Shown piece after piece: positions 24,702 through 61,996 of a stretch of 64,000 bases of DNA. The stretch is taken from contig FMBT01000300.1 in NCBI GenBank assembly GCA_900095095.1, forward strand, positions 310,001-374,000, given 5' to 3'. The notes beneath the pieces were generated by a model. The model saw only the letters and a program-made list of their open reading frames with translations. It did not search any database and was not told the origin of the DNA. A program made the translations under genes and the position numbers. The number at the start of each line of letters is the position of its first letter. The stretch's first letter is position 1. Source of the DNA: Fragilariopsis cylindrus CCMP1102. Its lineage: Eukaryota > Bacillariophyta > Bacillariophyceae > Bacillariales > Bacillariaceae.

Positions 24702-26288
24702 TTATTTACTATACTCCATTAACTTGGGATTATCATACAAGCCTCGTTGCCTGTCGATACGAATCAACCCATTTCCGACAACCAAATCAAGGTGATCACT
24801 CCGTTCCTTCAACTTTTTCAACTTTCCATTGATGGATGGTGCGATGTCAACTATTACAGGGTCTGCTAAACCACCTTGATCTACCTGAATATCACGAAAA
24901 TGTTTCCAGTGAAGTTGATGAGAGAGTTTGGTGTCGACATCCCAATCGTGACCATCACCGTGTAAATATACGACAGGTAAATCTTGCCGATGAGTAATGT
25001 TGACAAAGTAATCAGCTACGGACAAGAAAAATGGTCTAGTCCTTGGAGAACGCAAGGCATGACCGAGAATGATAACACCCCGTATCTCCAATTTTTCAAA
25101 ATGCGATTCTATATTATATGCCACCCATTCTTTGTTCATCTTCATTCGTGCATTCCAAGAATCTATATCCTCATGATCTAGTGGAGCATTAATCAAATGA
25201 ATCCCTATAAACAAAATACCTTCCCTATAGAAAACAAATAATTCCTGATTTTCCGATGACCGTTCAATGCCTAAAGGTTTATAATCATTTTTATGCCATT
25301 TAGTTTCAAGGGTACCAAAATACTGAAGAAAAAAGTTGAAACTTTCGGTTCGATTCGGGCAGTCATACCAATCATTGTCTCCGGGTACTACAATCGTTGG
25401 TAGGGGGCTAGGAAAAATAAAAGTAATATCCAGTAATATTTCAAATGAGGAAAACATTATAGGTTACTAGTAGTGTGAGAATAGGCGATCGATCAAAAAC
25501 ATACATGTTTGGGATAAAAAATTTGATGTGAATACTGTATTCAATACACTGACTGTACTGTACAACTCACCCTTTGCGAAGCAAGGTAGAGATATTTTTG
25601 TAAGAAGATTCTTCACATTGTGTATTCGCAATTTTCTGAATATCGCCCACATGAACCGTAAATGATAGGTTACGTTCTGGATGTGTCTTTACATATTTCT
25701 TCATTTCAGACATTTGAATTCCCAGTCTACTTTCTTGCCAATCTCTGTACTGCCATAGTGTGATATGATATGATATGATATGATAGGACGATACAATATG
25801 ATATGATGTGTATTGGATATGAATAGATAAATAATAAGGAAAAAATGGTTCAGAACTATTCCAAATAGGAAATTAGCAGTTTTCATGGAACGAAAGGCCT
25901 CATTCAGACAGGACTCTCTCACTCGTTCCCTTATTTATTTGTGTATCAAAAAAAAAATCCTGTAACATACCGGTGTATCACCCATCAAATAAAAGCTAAA
26001 AGCATTGAACGTAGTCGTAGTAGCATCTTCTTTCTTCTTCAAATTGTAGTCTTTTGTGCCGTCAGGTTGAGGTAAAATCACCGTGCTTTCTAAGCTTATT
26101 TTCGTCAATATCGTTCCTCTTGCGTTGGATGTTGTTGATGTCGTTGTTGTTATTTTTATTATTCGGTGACTATTCAAAATTATAATAACGAAAGAACCGC
26201 CTCCAACAAATAATAACACCCATTTCAATATTCTACGTTGAGAAAAAGATAGGAGATCTGATCTCTCTTTAAGTCGGATATCCACCAT
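24702..26288 (-). CDS. Membrane-anchored metallophosphoesterase A (3 exons)
   Basis: Exons 26288-25971, 25749-25571 and 25407-24702, giving 400 aa. A single N-terminal membrane segment ('ILKWVLLFVGGGSFVIIIL') suggests a type II anchor. The calcineurin-like phosphoesterase motifs are 'YLMGDTP', 'HVGDIQK', 'VVPGDNDWYDC', 'IILGHALRS' and 'YLHGDGHDWDV', which supply the metal ligands of PF00149-type enzymes. It is a paralog of the gene at 28527-30041, with the first intron at the same codon (after GDTP). Exon 2 ends in 'LLRKG', and this gene has an extra intron there that the paralog lacks. Intron 1 carries ATATC/ATATG pentamer repeats (about 25757-25785). The substrate is unknown. Confidence 0.82.
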
Positions 26289-28526: not shown

Positions 28527-30041
28527 TCAAACAATGTCCATAGGATTTTCGTACCGACCTTGTCTTTGGTCGAGACGAAACAGGCCTTTTCCAAACGTAG
28601 TTATAATACCATCGCCTTTATCCTTTTGAAACCCCTGGACAGTACCTTTTCGTTGTGCTGCTACGTCAAAAATAACTGGATCAGCAAATCCAGATTGTTC
28701 AATTTGGACATCGTAAAAATAATCCCAATTAACGTCGTCAGGGAACGTTCGATCCACTACATATGTGAGCCCATCACCATGTAGGTACATTACAGGGACC
28801 TCACGAGTAGCAATGTTAGTAAAGTATTTCGCCATGTTTTTAAAGAACGGACGGTTGCGTTCTGATCGTCCAGCGTGTCCCATTATGAAAACGCCTCTAA
28901 TTACACGCTTTGCAAAGTTCGTTTCAACAGATTCGGCTAACCATTCCATACTCGATTTCATTCGTTTGTCTCTTGACGTTTTTGATTCTGTATTGAGTGG
29001 TGCGTCGATCATGTGAACTCCTATGAAAAGAATACCCTCGACGTAAAAGTTAAACAATTCTGGATTGTCCTCCGATCGTTGTATGTCTAAATTTACATAA
29101 TGTTCAGAATGCCACTTCGAGACGAAATTCGGACCAAAATTGTTCATAAAGTAACCAAAGGCTTCCTCACGTCGAGGACAATTGTACCAATCATTGTTCC
29201 CGGGAACAACAAACGTTGGACGTGGCCCTTTGGTAATAATGTAACTAACTCGTTCATATGCTGACTCGGCGCAGAGTGAATTCGAAACTTTTTGTGTATC
29301 TCCTAGGTGAAGGCCCAAACTAATATTACGTTGAGGATTATCTTTGCTATAATCCCTCAGATCTGCCATTTGAGATCGGAGTCTTTTTTCTTGCCAATCA
29401 GTATACTGTAGTTTTGAAAGTGATCCACCAAGAACGAGAGAGAAAAGAAAAAACTTAATGAGGAAGATATTTTCTTTTGGACAAATCTCTAAACCGAAAC
29501 GAAACTTTAAAATGGGAGGGGGGAAATTATATAATATGAAAGAGATAGCATAATTATCATATGTGTATTCTTTTATCCTTACCGGTGTATCCGTGATGAC
29601 GTAAAAACTGAATCCGTTGAAATCTGAAGAATTGTTTCCTGCTTTCGTTATATAATCCATTGACCCGTCACTTGGTTTGGGAAGTATACTATTTTCCAAT
29701 TTAGCCAAAAGAGCGGCATCTGTAGTTTTCGATTTCGACTTTGATTTCGTCCGAGAGGTATGTATCGATCCTCCGTACATGCTAGATCCATAATTGGCGC
29801 TCACAACATGTTGTTCAGCACCGGCACTATCATGGATTTCAAGACTGTCATTGTGTTCGCTTTCTGCGATCTTCGACTGGACGATTTTTTTTTGGTTTTC
29901 ATACGTCCGAACGGCATTCAAACATACTAGGATGAACAGAGCATAAATCGCAATAAGCCATACGGGTTTCCTTGCTGTCGACGTCGTCGTCGACGTCGAC
30001 AAAGTTGAACGTGATATAGCAGTATTGGATATTTCTACCAT
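28527..30041 (-). CDS. Membrane-anchored metallophosphoesterase B (2 exons)
   Basis: Exon 1 is 30041-29583 and exon 2 is 29405-28527, giving 445 aa. The 177-nt intron is stop-free and a multiple of three, so a naive ORF reads through it; the join 'ITDTP' + 'YTDWQEKRL' matches paralog A. A type II membrane segment lies near the N-terminus ('VWLIAIYALFILVCLNAV'), followed by a longer Ser/Lys-rich stem than in A. Motifs: 'VITDTP', 'HLGDTQK', 'VVPGNNDWYNC', 'IMGHAGRS', but 'YLHGDGLTYVV' where A has 'YLHGDGHDWDV'. The His-to-Leu change removes a residue that is normally a metal ligand, so activity may be altered or lost. Confidence 0.82.
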   Translation of the reverse strand: MVEISNTAISRSTLSTSTTTSTARKPVWLIAIYALFILVCLNAVRTYENQKKIVQSKIAESEHNDSLEIHDSAGAEQHVVSANYGSSMYGGSIHTSRTKSKSKSKTTDAALLAKLENSILPKPSDGSMDYITKAGNNSSDFNGFSFYVITDTPVRIKEYTYDNYAISFILYNFPPPILKFRFGLEICPKENIFLIKFFLFSLVLGGSLSKLQYTDWQEKRLRSQMADLRDYSKDNPQRNISLGLHLGDTQKVSNSLCAESAYERVSYIITKGPRPTFVVPGNNDWYNCPRREEAFGYFMNNFGPNFVSKWHSEHYVNLDIQRSEDNPELFNFYVEGILFIGVHMIDAPLNTESKTSRDKRMKSSMEWLAESVETNFAKRVIRGVFIMGHAGRSERNRPFFKNMAKYFTNIATREVPVMYLHGDGLTYVVDRTFPDDVNWDYFYDVQIEQSGFADPVIFDVAAQRKGTVQGFQKDKGDGIITTFGKGLFRLDQRQGRYENPMDIV

Positions 30042-57128: not shown

Positions 57129-59230
57129 GCGTAAGTTATCATTGTCAGAAGTATTGCGGTTTTGTTCTTGTTGCTGTTGAATTTGATCCGATGACGACGA
57201 AGCAGTAGTAGATGAAGATTTTTCTTTCCAGCCCATTCTTTGAAGCATTTGATGGCCTACATTAGTCTCATTTAAAGGATCACTTCCGGGTGCAGTCGTA
57301 GTAGTACTAATAGATTCCTGTCGTTGGGACGACTCTACAAATTGTAGTACGGATTTTTCATTGGGAAGCCGTCGTCGAAAAGATGGAATTCCATTTGCAG
57401 GAGCGCTCAAATCTGATCCATGAAGCCGTCTTCGTTTTTCCGCACGGTCTGTGTATCCAACGGAAGTTGTAGATGTATTTGTATTTGCTACGACCTTGTT
57501 ATCTGTCTTTCGCTTTGTGTCGTCGCCCTCCTCTTTTTTCTGTTGTTGTTGTTGTTGTAGTTGCTGTTTCTCTTGAAGTTTCAAAACATTTTGCTTGTGA
57601 AGATCGGAAGATTTTTCATGTAGTCGTAGCTTGTCCAGATTAGGAAATTTACGCTTACAAAGTATACAAATTGGTTTACCCTTAGCTGTAGTTCGAACTT
57701 TTGTTGCGCTTATCGTTTCAACGGCCTTATTAGTGGCTTTTTCTATACTATTACTACTTGTAGTGGTAACATTATTATTATTCTGTTTCGATTCAACCCC
57801 CTTTTTGATCCACTTTTCGATGTTTGCGATCTGCTCTTTCTTTACTTTAGAAATAGTCGTAGTAGCCTCTGCTGTAGAACAAGTACTACTACTAGCGGTG
57901 ACGACGGCGGTCAATGATGATGACTTGACTTTCTTAGTTTTTAATTTGATAGTTTTTAATTTGATCGCAATTTTCGGTTTGGACGTCTTCTGGTTGCTGT
58001 TATTATTTCCGTCGTTCTTTACAACTACTGCTCCTCCATTATCTTCGTGTTGTTCGAGTTGTTCAGTTGTCATTTTTTGTACTTGAACGAATGGTGGTTC
58101 CTTTGTTTCGTCGTATCGAAAATAACTAGATTCCTTATTACCATAATACAATTTACTTTTTGGATCATAAAAAAAATCAGATATTGATTCATAAAACATA
58201 GCAGAACGAGAATCGAAGACGAATGCAGAACCATCATTTTCAAATGATGGTGGCCATTCGTTTGGCTTTCGTTGTTGTTTATTATCTTTTTCAGTTATTC
58301 CTTTGTAATAATGGTTATTATCATCATTATTATTATCATCATCCTCGTAGTCACCGCCGCCACCGCCGCGTCTACCTTCATAATCATTTAAATTATTACG
58401 ACGATGGTCACGATCACGATCACGATTGCGATCACGACCACGATGAGGACTAGGAGATCTTCTACTTCGGTCATCCCTACTACTACCTGAATAATAATCA
58501 TCACGACGACGAGAAGATCTTTCCTCCGAATGACGAGAAGTGGATCTACTACTAGTAGGCTCAGAATAATATATATTTTTGTCATCATCATCATCGTCGT
58601 CGTTGTCGTCGTTGTACCGTTTTCTTCGGTTATTACTTCTTCTTCCTCTAACGTCGTAGTCATCGTTTGTATTACCATTATCGTTATCATAGAAAGGATA
58701 ACGATCATCATTATTATCATTATCGTCATAGTTATTGTTGGATTTTCTATGTGCGAATCGTTGAGAATCTCCTCTCCCATCTCGTGACATTGAACGATCT
58801 TTGTAAAAGGATAGGGTGGGGGGGGGGGGGGGGGAGAGAAGAGGAAAAAAGTACGACATTATTTTTGAAAAAAATAGTGATAATAATGTATGTAATGTAG
58901 TGATGATAAATAAATAAATGTCGTGAGAAATACTGTACAACAATTAATTCTTTCGTTTTTCAATGTTGTATGCCGACGACGGACGAATGCTAGTCTACCT
59001 GCTACTGTTATTTCTCCATTTCTAATATTCCGTGATGACGATGCGAATGACGATGCTGATGATGATAAGGACGGCTCACGCTTCGTTTGGTATCCTCTAT
59101 CTCTATTGTTGTAATTGTCCCTCCGGCGATTACTACTACTAGTAGTGGTAGTAGTAGTAGTATTAGTATCATCGACGACGATAACAGTGTCTTGCTGCTG
59201 GGCCTTAAGAATACATTCTCGATTCTCCAT
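57039..59230 (-). CDS. RBM5/RBM10-like splicing factor: OCRE, C2H2 finger, G-patch (2 exons)
   Basis: Exon 1 is 59230-58999 and exon 2 is 58798-57039; the intron is 200 nt and the product 663 aa. After an RS/RD-rich N-terminal half ('RGRDRNRDRDRDHRRNN') come an OCRE repeat at about 262-312 ('MFYESISDFFYDPKSKLYYG'), a C2H2 finger at about 455-477 ('CILCKRKFPNLDKLRLHEKS') and a G-patch at about 588-600 ('VGHQMLQRMGWKE'). This is the order in RBM5, RBM10 and plant SUA, which control exon choice. The RRMs of those proteins are not visible here. The C-terminus 'NNNNSRPYGRSNSKNGIG' is produced by a tandem duplication that shifts the frame. The intron holds a poly-C tract (sense strand) 19-36 nt before the acceptor. 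Confidence 0.85.
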
Positions 59231-59758
59231 AATGAACAACTAACGACAACTATGATATGTCAGTGATGATTACAGGTAAATTTTATTTTGTTGCGCTTGA
59301 TTACTTCTGTCTTTTCCAAGTATCGTAACAGTATGTCTTATTCATTGATGGTAGGATGCAGTATTTAACTTTTTTGTTTGTTTGATGTTGTGTCGATTGT
59401 TTCTCTTCTTTTTGCTTCAAATTTGTTTTTGAAGCTTTCTTGCTCTTCCATGGTATTAAAGGTACGTAATGATAGTATTTTGATAGAGTATTAAAGGTAC
59501 GATAGAAAAAGATACAAGCGCGCAATAAAGTAAACAGAATCTAAATAATAGCGAAGGAATTTAGTTGCACAATGATGCACTATTACTAGTATCGAACAAT
59601 CGAAGAATCGAAGAATGAAGAATGAAGAAGAGCAATAACCAAGAGGGCACACATACAATATTTGAATTTGGTAGAAACGGTACAAACAACGGTACATCGG
59701 CGACAATCTAGCTACAACAACAAGAACAACAACAACAAGTTCAGCAGCAACAACAACA
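59231..59758. promoter_or_regulatory. Divergent gap between the RBM5-like and DCC genes
   Basis: About 530 nt; CAA repeats (59715-59758) directly precede the DCC start codon. No gene was seen. Confidence 0.5.
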
Positions 59759-60415
59759 ATGCTTCCTATCGATTTTGATGAATCGACGAAGGATTTGTTA
59801 GGTGTAGATAAAAAGGGAAATCAACGTGCATTATTTTTATATGATGGTGGTTGTGGTGTATGAAAATTCTTAGCAAAATTCGTTATTGAACGTGATATAG
59901 TAGATCATATTCGATTTACACCAATACAAACGAATTTTGCACAAGAATTATCTAATACGTATGGTATGCCAGCAGACGTATCAACTGCAATATTATTCAC
60001 TGGTGGAAGAAAAACAAATACAGGAAGAACTAGGGTACCAGTAGTAGGAAATGGCGACGAAAAAGAATGTTCTGGCACTAGTGCTAGTGGTGCTGGTAAT
60101 GGCACTGCCACTACTGCATACATCGAATCTGATTCGATATTGGTTATGTTTACATATTTAAAATTTCCATATTTTATTTTAGGTTATATAGCATTATATA
60201 TGGTACCGAAAATAATACGTGATATAGGATATCGTTTATTTGCTAAAAATAGAGGAACAATCTGGATTTTTATTAAAAAAATAACCGGAATGGGTGATAC
60301 ACTTATGTATAAATATAAAGATAGTGTACTTGGTTTAGAAAACGACAAGGATAAGGATAGTATATTGGAAAGTTGGGGTTTCAACGAACCAACAACAACA
60401 AGTATTGGTTCTTAA
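59759..60415 (+). CDS. DCC-family thiol-disulfide oxidoreductase with in-frame TGA at the CxxC motif (candidate selenoprotein)
   Basis: Start ATG 59759, stop TAA 60413-60415, 219 codons in one exon with a single internal TGA at 59861-59863. The DCC family is defined by a thioredoxin-like D-G-x-C-x-x-C motif near the N-terminus. Here the frame reads 'ALFLYDGGCGV', TGA, 'KFLAKFVIERDIVDHIRFTP', so TGA falls exactly at the second Cys (residue 35), giving Cys32-Gly-Val-Sec35 if it is decoded as selenocysteine. The remainder is intact: 'IRFTPIQTNFAQELSNTYGM', a Gly/Thr-rich insert, then 'YLKFPYFILGYIALYMVPKI', the hydrophobic segment common in the family. CxxU is the usual selenoprotein form of a CxxC redox centre. 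I did not find a convincing SECIS hairpin by eye in the 440 nt downstream. A simple nonsense mutation remains possible. Confidence 0.8.
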
Positions 60416-60854
60416 AATAATAATTATATGGAAGATTATTATTGTTTTTGATCGAGTTTTATCATCGCTGCATACAAAATGATGTTGGAATGACATTCGT
60501 GACACCCCCCCCTAATCTTCTGACACATCCGACTATACTTACCGTATATTACATCCGTTTGTTTTTGGTGTAATAGTACTGTATACAGTCAAAAGATTTT
60601 TGTCAAACAAACACGAATTGATACAACACATTATGTAATTCACTGTGATACAACATTACATCAAAAAAACAACTGTAAGAACAGTTATTAGACATATTAT
60701 ATTAATAATATGCACTACGTTTATATATATCGGCAGTATTATTGTCTGCAGACTACTACACGTCTAGCAATTTGTACCTACAAAGAAACAATTACACAAA
60801 CGTACAGTCATTTTTTAACATTGACCATTTTATGTCAATAAGTGCTTTTAGCTC
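60416..60854. other. 3' region of the DCC gene; place to look for a SECIS element
   Basis: About 440 nt. Hairpins visible: AACTGT-AAGA-ACAGTT near 60668-60690 and ATTACATC with GGTGTAAT around a 11-nt loop near 60549-60575. Neither has the ATGA/AA/GA core of a SECIS. A weak stem GTTGGA...TCCGAC (about 60483-60533) encloses ATGA but no proper upper helix. No gene was seen. Confidence 0.5.
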
Positions 60855-61996
60855 TTAGGGAAAATTCTGTCGGGATTTCAGCTCTTTTCCCTCATAGTAT
60901 TCAACTGCAAACGGATCTAAAAAGTACGAATGCTTTAAGATGTGGTTTGGCTCTTCGATCTCCTCTGACGTCACATCGAATGCATCAATGTAATTCACGA
61001 AATCATCACGAGTGACATCCGGGCTTCTAGAATTCTTGAACCATCCATCGACCCATCCCAAACCCTTGGCCCCAATCCTGCTCTCAGAATTGGCCAGGAA
61101 ACTACCATTAAGGGCTACGTCGTCCTTATTCCAGAGGATGCAGATCTTACCATTGGGCGTACCGTCAGATTTCTTGGTGAGCATGCCAAAGAAATGGGTT
61201 GCCTTTTCATACTTGTTCCCGCTGACTTTCTTCTGCGAGGGGAAGCAATATCCTTCATTTGGCTCCTTGTGAAAAATGTCGTAGGGAACGTCCTGTAAAG
61301 AAAGAAAAAAGTTGGAGGTAGTATAATTTAGGTGTTAGCGTCGCATCCATCCATCCAAAAGTCAATTCGCAAACTTCCATCAGGTTTTCGTTATTAATCA
61401 AATTTATTACTTACAGCCGCAACCATGAAGATATTATCAAACGTAACATCTGGTGTCGCGCTAGCACAGGCACCGTTGAAGACGGCATGGTTGCCCATAC
61501 TGTGCATAAGCAACGACTTGCGAGAAAAGGTATCATTCGGAATAAAGTCCACGAAGGCCTTCATTGCATTACCCGCATTCATAGATTTATCCTGATCACC
61601 ATAATACGCCAAAGTATTTCCCTCGCTGGCCCAGATTACGGGGACGTGATAATATATATCTTTCTTCTGAAAGTTGGAGTAGTTGTACTCTAAATAATCA
61701 CTGGGCTCGACGTCGAAGCCATGCACGAGAAAAAGAGGGGAGCTTGTTGTGGAAGAAGCATCGATGATTTTTTTGGCCTCGTCGATGGATAACTTTGTGG
61801 CAGAGAATTTGCGCTTTCCCCTTCCAACTTGTTGGGGGTCGCTGATCTCTCTGATTTTGTGGAGAAAGACGGCTTCAACACCATTACCCTCGTATTCGTT
61901 GAAGGTTACCACATTGGATGAGCCGGCTTCAGCCTTGGTGATAATGGTCGTTACGATGAGTCCATCGTATTCTATGGCAACTCGTTCAGCGCTCAT
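60855..61996 (-). CDS. Alpha/beta hydrolase, DUF900-like (2 exons)
   Basis: Exon 1 is 61996-61415 and exon 2 is 61292-60855; the intron is 122 nt and the product 339 aa. Oxyanion-side motif 'PLFLVHGFDVEPSDYL' and nucleophile elbow 'SLLMHSMGNHAVFNG' (Ser about residue 167) are followed by 'NIFMVAADVPYDIFHKEP', where 'VAADV' is the usual strand after the elbow in DUF900 proteins and carries the acidic residue. A late 'HSYFLDP' provides a candidate catalytic His. No signal peptide or membrane segment. The substrate is unknown; lipase-like or esterase activity is inferred from the fold. Confidence 0.8.

Follow-up and report, generated by a model that had tools for sequence, protein, structure and literature searches.

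A DCC1-like thiol-disulfide oxidoreductase gene of the diatom Fragilariopsis cylindrus carries an in-frame TGA at the codon where its relatives encode the second Cys of the active-site motif. We put at about an even chance that this TGA is a recent nonsense allele (or marks a very young pseudogene) or an assembly base error. That it encodes selenocysteine (Sec) is a serious possibility, held here tentatively. The gene lies in a 64,000 nt stretch of contig FMBT01000300.1 (the window), and its features are collected in Table 1. The first-pass annotation had proposed a candidate DCC selenoprotein; the assignment to the DCC family, the CxxU position, the single lesion and the preserved downstream part are upheld, but a SECIS element could not be found on the genomic flank.

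Table 1. Features of the DCC1-like gene and its 3′ flank (window positions)
Feature	Position	Strand	Basis
DCC1-like thiol-disulfide oxidoreductase frame, 219 codons including the final TAA	59759..60415	+	ORF, PF04134 match, alignment, HMM
Active-site motif D-G-G-C-G-V-TGA, residues 29-35	59843..59863	+	Translation and alignment
In-frame TGA, codon 35, aligned with the second motif Cys	59861..59863	+	Translation and alignments
Post-TGA stretch, open to the final stop; family-conserved D46, Q57, L134, P150, Y158, A162, N164, R165	59864..60412	+	
3′ flank, ending at the probable last exon of a convergent minus-strand gene; no recognisable SECIS	60416..60854	+	

The interrupted reading frame

The frame starts with an ATG at 59759 and closes with a TAA at 60413-60415; the closest in-frame stop upstream is at 59672, with no in-frame ATG in between. 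Translation and alignments confirm the earlier claim that the sole internal stop of the 219-codon frame is a TGA on the second Cys of D-G-x-C-x-x-C, a motif that here reads D-G-G-C-G-V-TGA-K. The C-x-x-C redox motif of the family is therefore incomplete, with its first Cys retained. Over 59759-60415, this one internal stop compares with 14, 22, 12, 3 and 17 stops in the other five frames. Third-position GC is 0.206 before the TGA and 0.180 after it, and such low values on both sides indicate that the coding signal carries on past the TGA. Among 16 ORFs measured, this frame has the lowest value (0.183 across 59759-60412), the rest lying at 0.283-0.517. GC content is 33% for the gene and 39% for the whole window.

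When the TGA was read as Cys, the protein gave a single Pfam match, PF04134 (DCC1-like; E=2e-14), at 55.2 bits against a curated cut-off of 27.8. We take PF04134 to be the family formerly named DUF393, a name present in plasmid annotations. An HMM of 55 relatives, built without the window sequence, scored the first 34 residues at 14.2 bits and the post-TGA stretch alone at 66.0 bits, so that conserved sequence flanks the TGA on both sides, as is expected of a selenoprotein gene. An alignment of the window protein with nine plasmid-borne prokaryotic relatives (A1) shows no variation at D29, G30, C32, D46, Q57, L134, P150, Y158, A162, N164 and R165, and 9/9 relatives carry Cys at the position of the TGA. 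A C-terminal column is likewise Cys in all nine relatives and is Leu in the window protein. The assertion that family features are intact after the TGA thus holds for the downstream score and for the lack of any further stop, but not for this C-terminal Cys. The window protein also has a low-complexity insert of ~35 residues between two conserved blocks.

The Cys column was judged from A1 and from loci picked by the Pfam model rather than by the motif. These are the fairer tests, because a second alignment (A2) was gathered with a pattern demanding both Cys and its Cys columns prove nothing. The Pfam survey of 395 prokaryotic genomes of one phylum gave 41 PF04134 matches in 40 genomes, none with an internal stop. 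Forty loci were examined, one 28-position match being left out, and C-x-x-C was present in 35/35 loci alignable to the HMM; the other five were not counted (four have D-G-x-C-x-x-C in some frame, and one has none). Both sets therefore place the in-frame TGA on a column where homologs carry Cys, one mark of a selenoprotein gene. None of the PF04134 matches in these genomes was a Sec version.

Searches with the window protein gave no match in viral contigs, genome contigs or plasmids at E<=1e-3, and its 61-residue core matched 50 plasmid records at E<=10. At 1e-5, two phage records matched, each bearing the label Staphylococcus phage; their frame has Y-D-G-N-C-I-Y-C. A scan of viral contigs for Y-D-G-x-C-G-x-TGA returned 26 stretches, and none is a DCC gene by the HMM test, the best match in any frame having E=0.024. 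The pattern D-G-G-C-G-V-TGN-K was found in one viral stretch, which we rejected: its frame has several stops and reads W at that codon. A PDB sequence search and NCBIfam gave nothing convincing for the window protein.

An AlphaFold2 model of the protein has a mean pLDDT of 74.7, with block means of 86-91 over residues 21-60, and places residue 35 within a helix (33-45). A Foldseek search against the PDB gave no match at E<=0.001; the top match was a thioredoxin (E=0.079), as were many of the next ones.

Several observations concern the neighbouring sequence. The convergent minus-strand neighbour (60855-61996) has a weak match to DUF900, an alpha/beta-hydrolase, at E=2.1e-4 in ORF 61394-61996, which is presumably separated by an intron from ORF 60855-61184 (minus strand). 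Two further minus-strand ORFs of similar sequence, 24702-25457 and 28527-30041, lie ~3 kb apart in what looks like a local duplication. Among the window ORFs are N-termini resembling plastid presequences, and asparagine- and aspartate-rich runs, features that with the GC content of 39% point to a diatom. Upstream of the DCC1-like gene there is a run of nearly 20 G at 58816-58834. Long G runs are a frequent site of assembly error.

Search for a SECIS element

Eukaryotic SECIS elements were absent from an Rfam search of the window at E<=1 (one other match) and from an Rfam search in sensitive mode over 58900-61400 at E<=10 (seven other matches). Two custom scanners applied to the 3′ flank found zero SECIS candidates with AA or CC. 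The first of these is strict, with shuffled sequences averaging 0.22 candidates, so its blank is weakly informative. A forced-helix scanner gave candidates that were weak or misplaced, the best in the flank proper having -0.2 kcal/mol with AA and -6.8 kcal/mol without AA/CC.

We also recoded the published SECISearch rules, as given in the main text of PMC2375036, and checked them on synthetic elements only (200/200 recovered). Over 60416-61415 there were 14 sequence-level matches, and none passes. No plus-strand match passes between 37272 and the end of the window, which lies 3.6 kb beyond the final stop. Across the whole window, 19 entries on the plus strand and 27 on the minus strand pass, which is the background of the test. 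A permissive scan of 60416-60860 (445 nt) found zero candidates, compared with 66/100 shuffles that had one. Extended to 61300 from the same start, its best candidate had -2.2 kcal/mol, a value attained by 85/100 shuffles. The fold of the 3′ flank is somewhat more stable than those of shuffles (z -1.90; 4/100 as good) and contains no visible SECIS.

Individual structures were rejected as SECIS elements. The hairpin at 60449-60503 (TTGAT...TGAC, -6.8 kcal/mol) was found only when the AA/CC requirement was dropped, and TTGAT at 60619, which has AA, reaches -0.2 kcal/mol. Sequence-level matches at 60499 (AA at 11, GA at 60531) and 60490 (CC) have no usable helix. For GGA/AGA quartets the only flank case, with GGA, spans 60367-60456 (-10.2 kcal/mol), starts inside the coding frame and is branched. 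A bacterial-type hairpin after the TGA has -2.9 kcal/mol.

Two minus-strand hairpins were observed elsewhere. The hairpin at 19407-19364 passes the published rules (ATGAC, AA, AGAT or TGAG, upper stem -5.9 to -8.6 kcal/mol) and lies between two plus-strand ORFs; judged by this position, it is probably background. A SECIS-like hairpin at 61009-60955 (-12.9 kcal/mol) sits inside the apparent coding sequence of the convergent minus-strand gene and is probably due to chance.

A 3′ SECIS is the cis element that marks a eukaryotic selenoprotein mRNA, and the first-pass annotation had named its absence from the mature transcript as one ground for refutation. The searches here covered genomic sequence. 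On the genomic flank none was found by Rfam, the custom scanners, the published rules or the permissive scan. This negative is real for the genomic sequence; it does not extend to non-canonical elements or to a 3′ UTR that is longer or spliced.

Interpretation of the TGA codon

To gauge how surprising the place of the stop is, we assumed a Cys codon at position 35 and counted all single-base changes that create a stop in the frame. Two of 95 such changes hit the motif Cys pair, a fraction of 0.021 (0.017 if transitions are given 4x weight) that becomes 0.071 when only TGA-making changes are counted. The earlier argument that a random nonsense change is unlikely at that residue is right that such a hit is rare, but it comes to only ~1 in 50. 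The placement favours Sec over random nonsense by a factor of ~14 to 50, which is suggestive of more than chance and not overwhelming. Under neutral divergence, the probability that no other stop would have arisen is 0.53 at 2%, 0.21 at 5% and 0.04 at 10%, and the lack of other stops thus bounds the neutral age of the frame only loosely.

According to the nonsense or base-error reading, the gene would be nuclear and specify a DCC1-like oxidoreductase, with its frame interrupted at codon 35. If read as a stop, the TGA would leave a 34-residue fragment lacking the second motif Cys, and no working enzyme would come from this copy. We infer both that the TGA is read as a stop and that the change is young. 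A single nonsense change requires no additional event, and neutral divergence up to ~5% would leave the rest of the frame open at the probabilities just given. No scan of the genomic flank gave a SECIS, and a Sec version of the family is unseen in the one phylum surveyed. The Leu in place of the C-terminal Cys and the lowest third-position GC are two more departures that we count for this reading. Against it stand the location of the stop on one of two catalytic Cys, the 219 codons without another stop or frameshift, and the combination of a common Sec motif with a host group rich in selenoproteins.

The competing possibility is that the TGA is decoded as Sec and that this DCC1-like oxidoreductase, with its CxxU centre, represents a new family of eukaryotic selenoproteins; we regard this as plausible, though somewhat doubtful. 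A selenol would replace the second motif thiol, and the SECIS would be atypical, past an intron, or beyond the window or unusually far away. Such a CxxU centre would sit in a thioredoxin-like setting, and by analogy with known CxxU proteins its predicted partner in a selenenylsulfide would be C32. The TGA falls exactly on a strict Cys column, and coding signal and homology are intact beyond it; in the structure model, residue 35 falls at a helix start such as redox motifs typically have. In the main texts of PMC2398784 and PMC13188914 CxxU is a common motif for Sec, and that of PMC7539508 gives diatoms 20-44 selenoprotein genes.

Against decoding as Sec, there is the negative SECIS search, and the gene is one sequence with no second TGA-bearing homolog among the prokaryotic, plasmid and viral sequences searched. 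An algal survey describing 42 selenoprotein families, which screened for in-frame TGAs with a SECIS and with conservation on either side, does not have DCC in its main text or abbreviations, although its category 'Hypo' could hide one (PMC7539508). The term 'DCC' is likewise absent from the main texts of PMC2398784, PMC2375036, PMC13188914, PMC9312934 and PMC12013277. A literature search, thin on subscription papers, found no DCC, DUF393, DCC1-like or YuxK selenoprotein and no DCC oxidoreductase in diatoms. As for Sec machinery, the window contains no tRNA.

Since the RNA signal required for Sec was not found, a broken gene or a base error is no less probable than Sec. The TGA position and the missing SECIS roughly cancel, and prior expectation decides. 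The weights that we attach to the readings are a judgement rather than a computed posterior.

Other ways past the TGA are much less probable. Read-through of the stop by a near-cognate tRNA, or editing of codon 35 in the RNA, is improbable: the intact remainder of the frame is the one point in favour, no promoting feature was seen, and the context TGA-AAA is not known to be leaky. A short intron that takes out the TGA is very improbable. Although there are 36 in-frame GT-AG stretches (18 to 213 nt) across the TGA whose removal leaves no other stop, all of them remove the TGA codon and 0/36 products have C-x-x-C; the 18-nt stretch also deletes residues matched to the DCC1-like family. Equally remote is a code that assigns TGA an amino acid, either throughout this genome or in an organelle-derived copy: the gene is AT-rich, but reassignment is unlikely since TGA terminates 2/15 other ORFs examined (some possibly single exons), and the residue aligned with the TGA is Cys, not Trp.

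If the TGA does encode Sec, a redox family would be added beyond those in the main text of the 42-family algal survey (PMC7539508), one also absent by term from the main text of a review from 2026 that covers 119 prokaryotic families and subfamilies (PMC13188914), and either the SECIS would have to be non-canonical or the 3′ UTR unusual. If it does not, the gene is a useful caution for many-genome scans for Sec. With ~2/95 nonsense changes in this gene hitting a catalytic Cys, such scans will meet cases of this kind without selenium.

Comparison with known systems

SELENOW/T/H/M are CxxU selenoproteins of thioredoxin-like fold. The window gene resembles eukaryotic selenoproteins of this type in having an in-frame TGA on a redox Cys. 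Unlike them, it has no SECIS that we could find, and the DCC family is absent from the family lists in the main texts of PMC7539508, where the SELENOW/T/H/M names appear, and PMC13188914. It is also a lineage-restricted algal candidate, as are PDI_e, AhpC_b and SymSEP in the main text of PMC7539508; SECIS elements are reported there for two of these, PDI_e and AhpC_b, and both PDI_e and SymSEP comprise several sequences, whereas the window gene is one sequence with no SECIS found. The window protein differs from the DCC1-like family (PF04134) in its TGA for the second motif Cys, its Leu for the C-terminal Cys and its low-complexity insert, and shares with that family D-G-x-C-x-x, D46, Q57, P150, Y158, N164, R165 and both conserved blocks.
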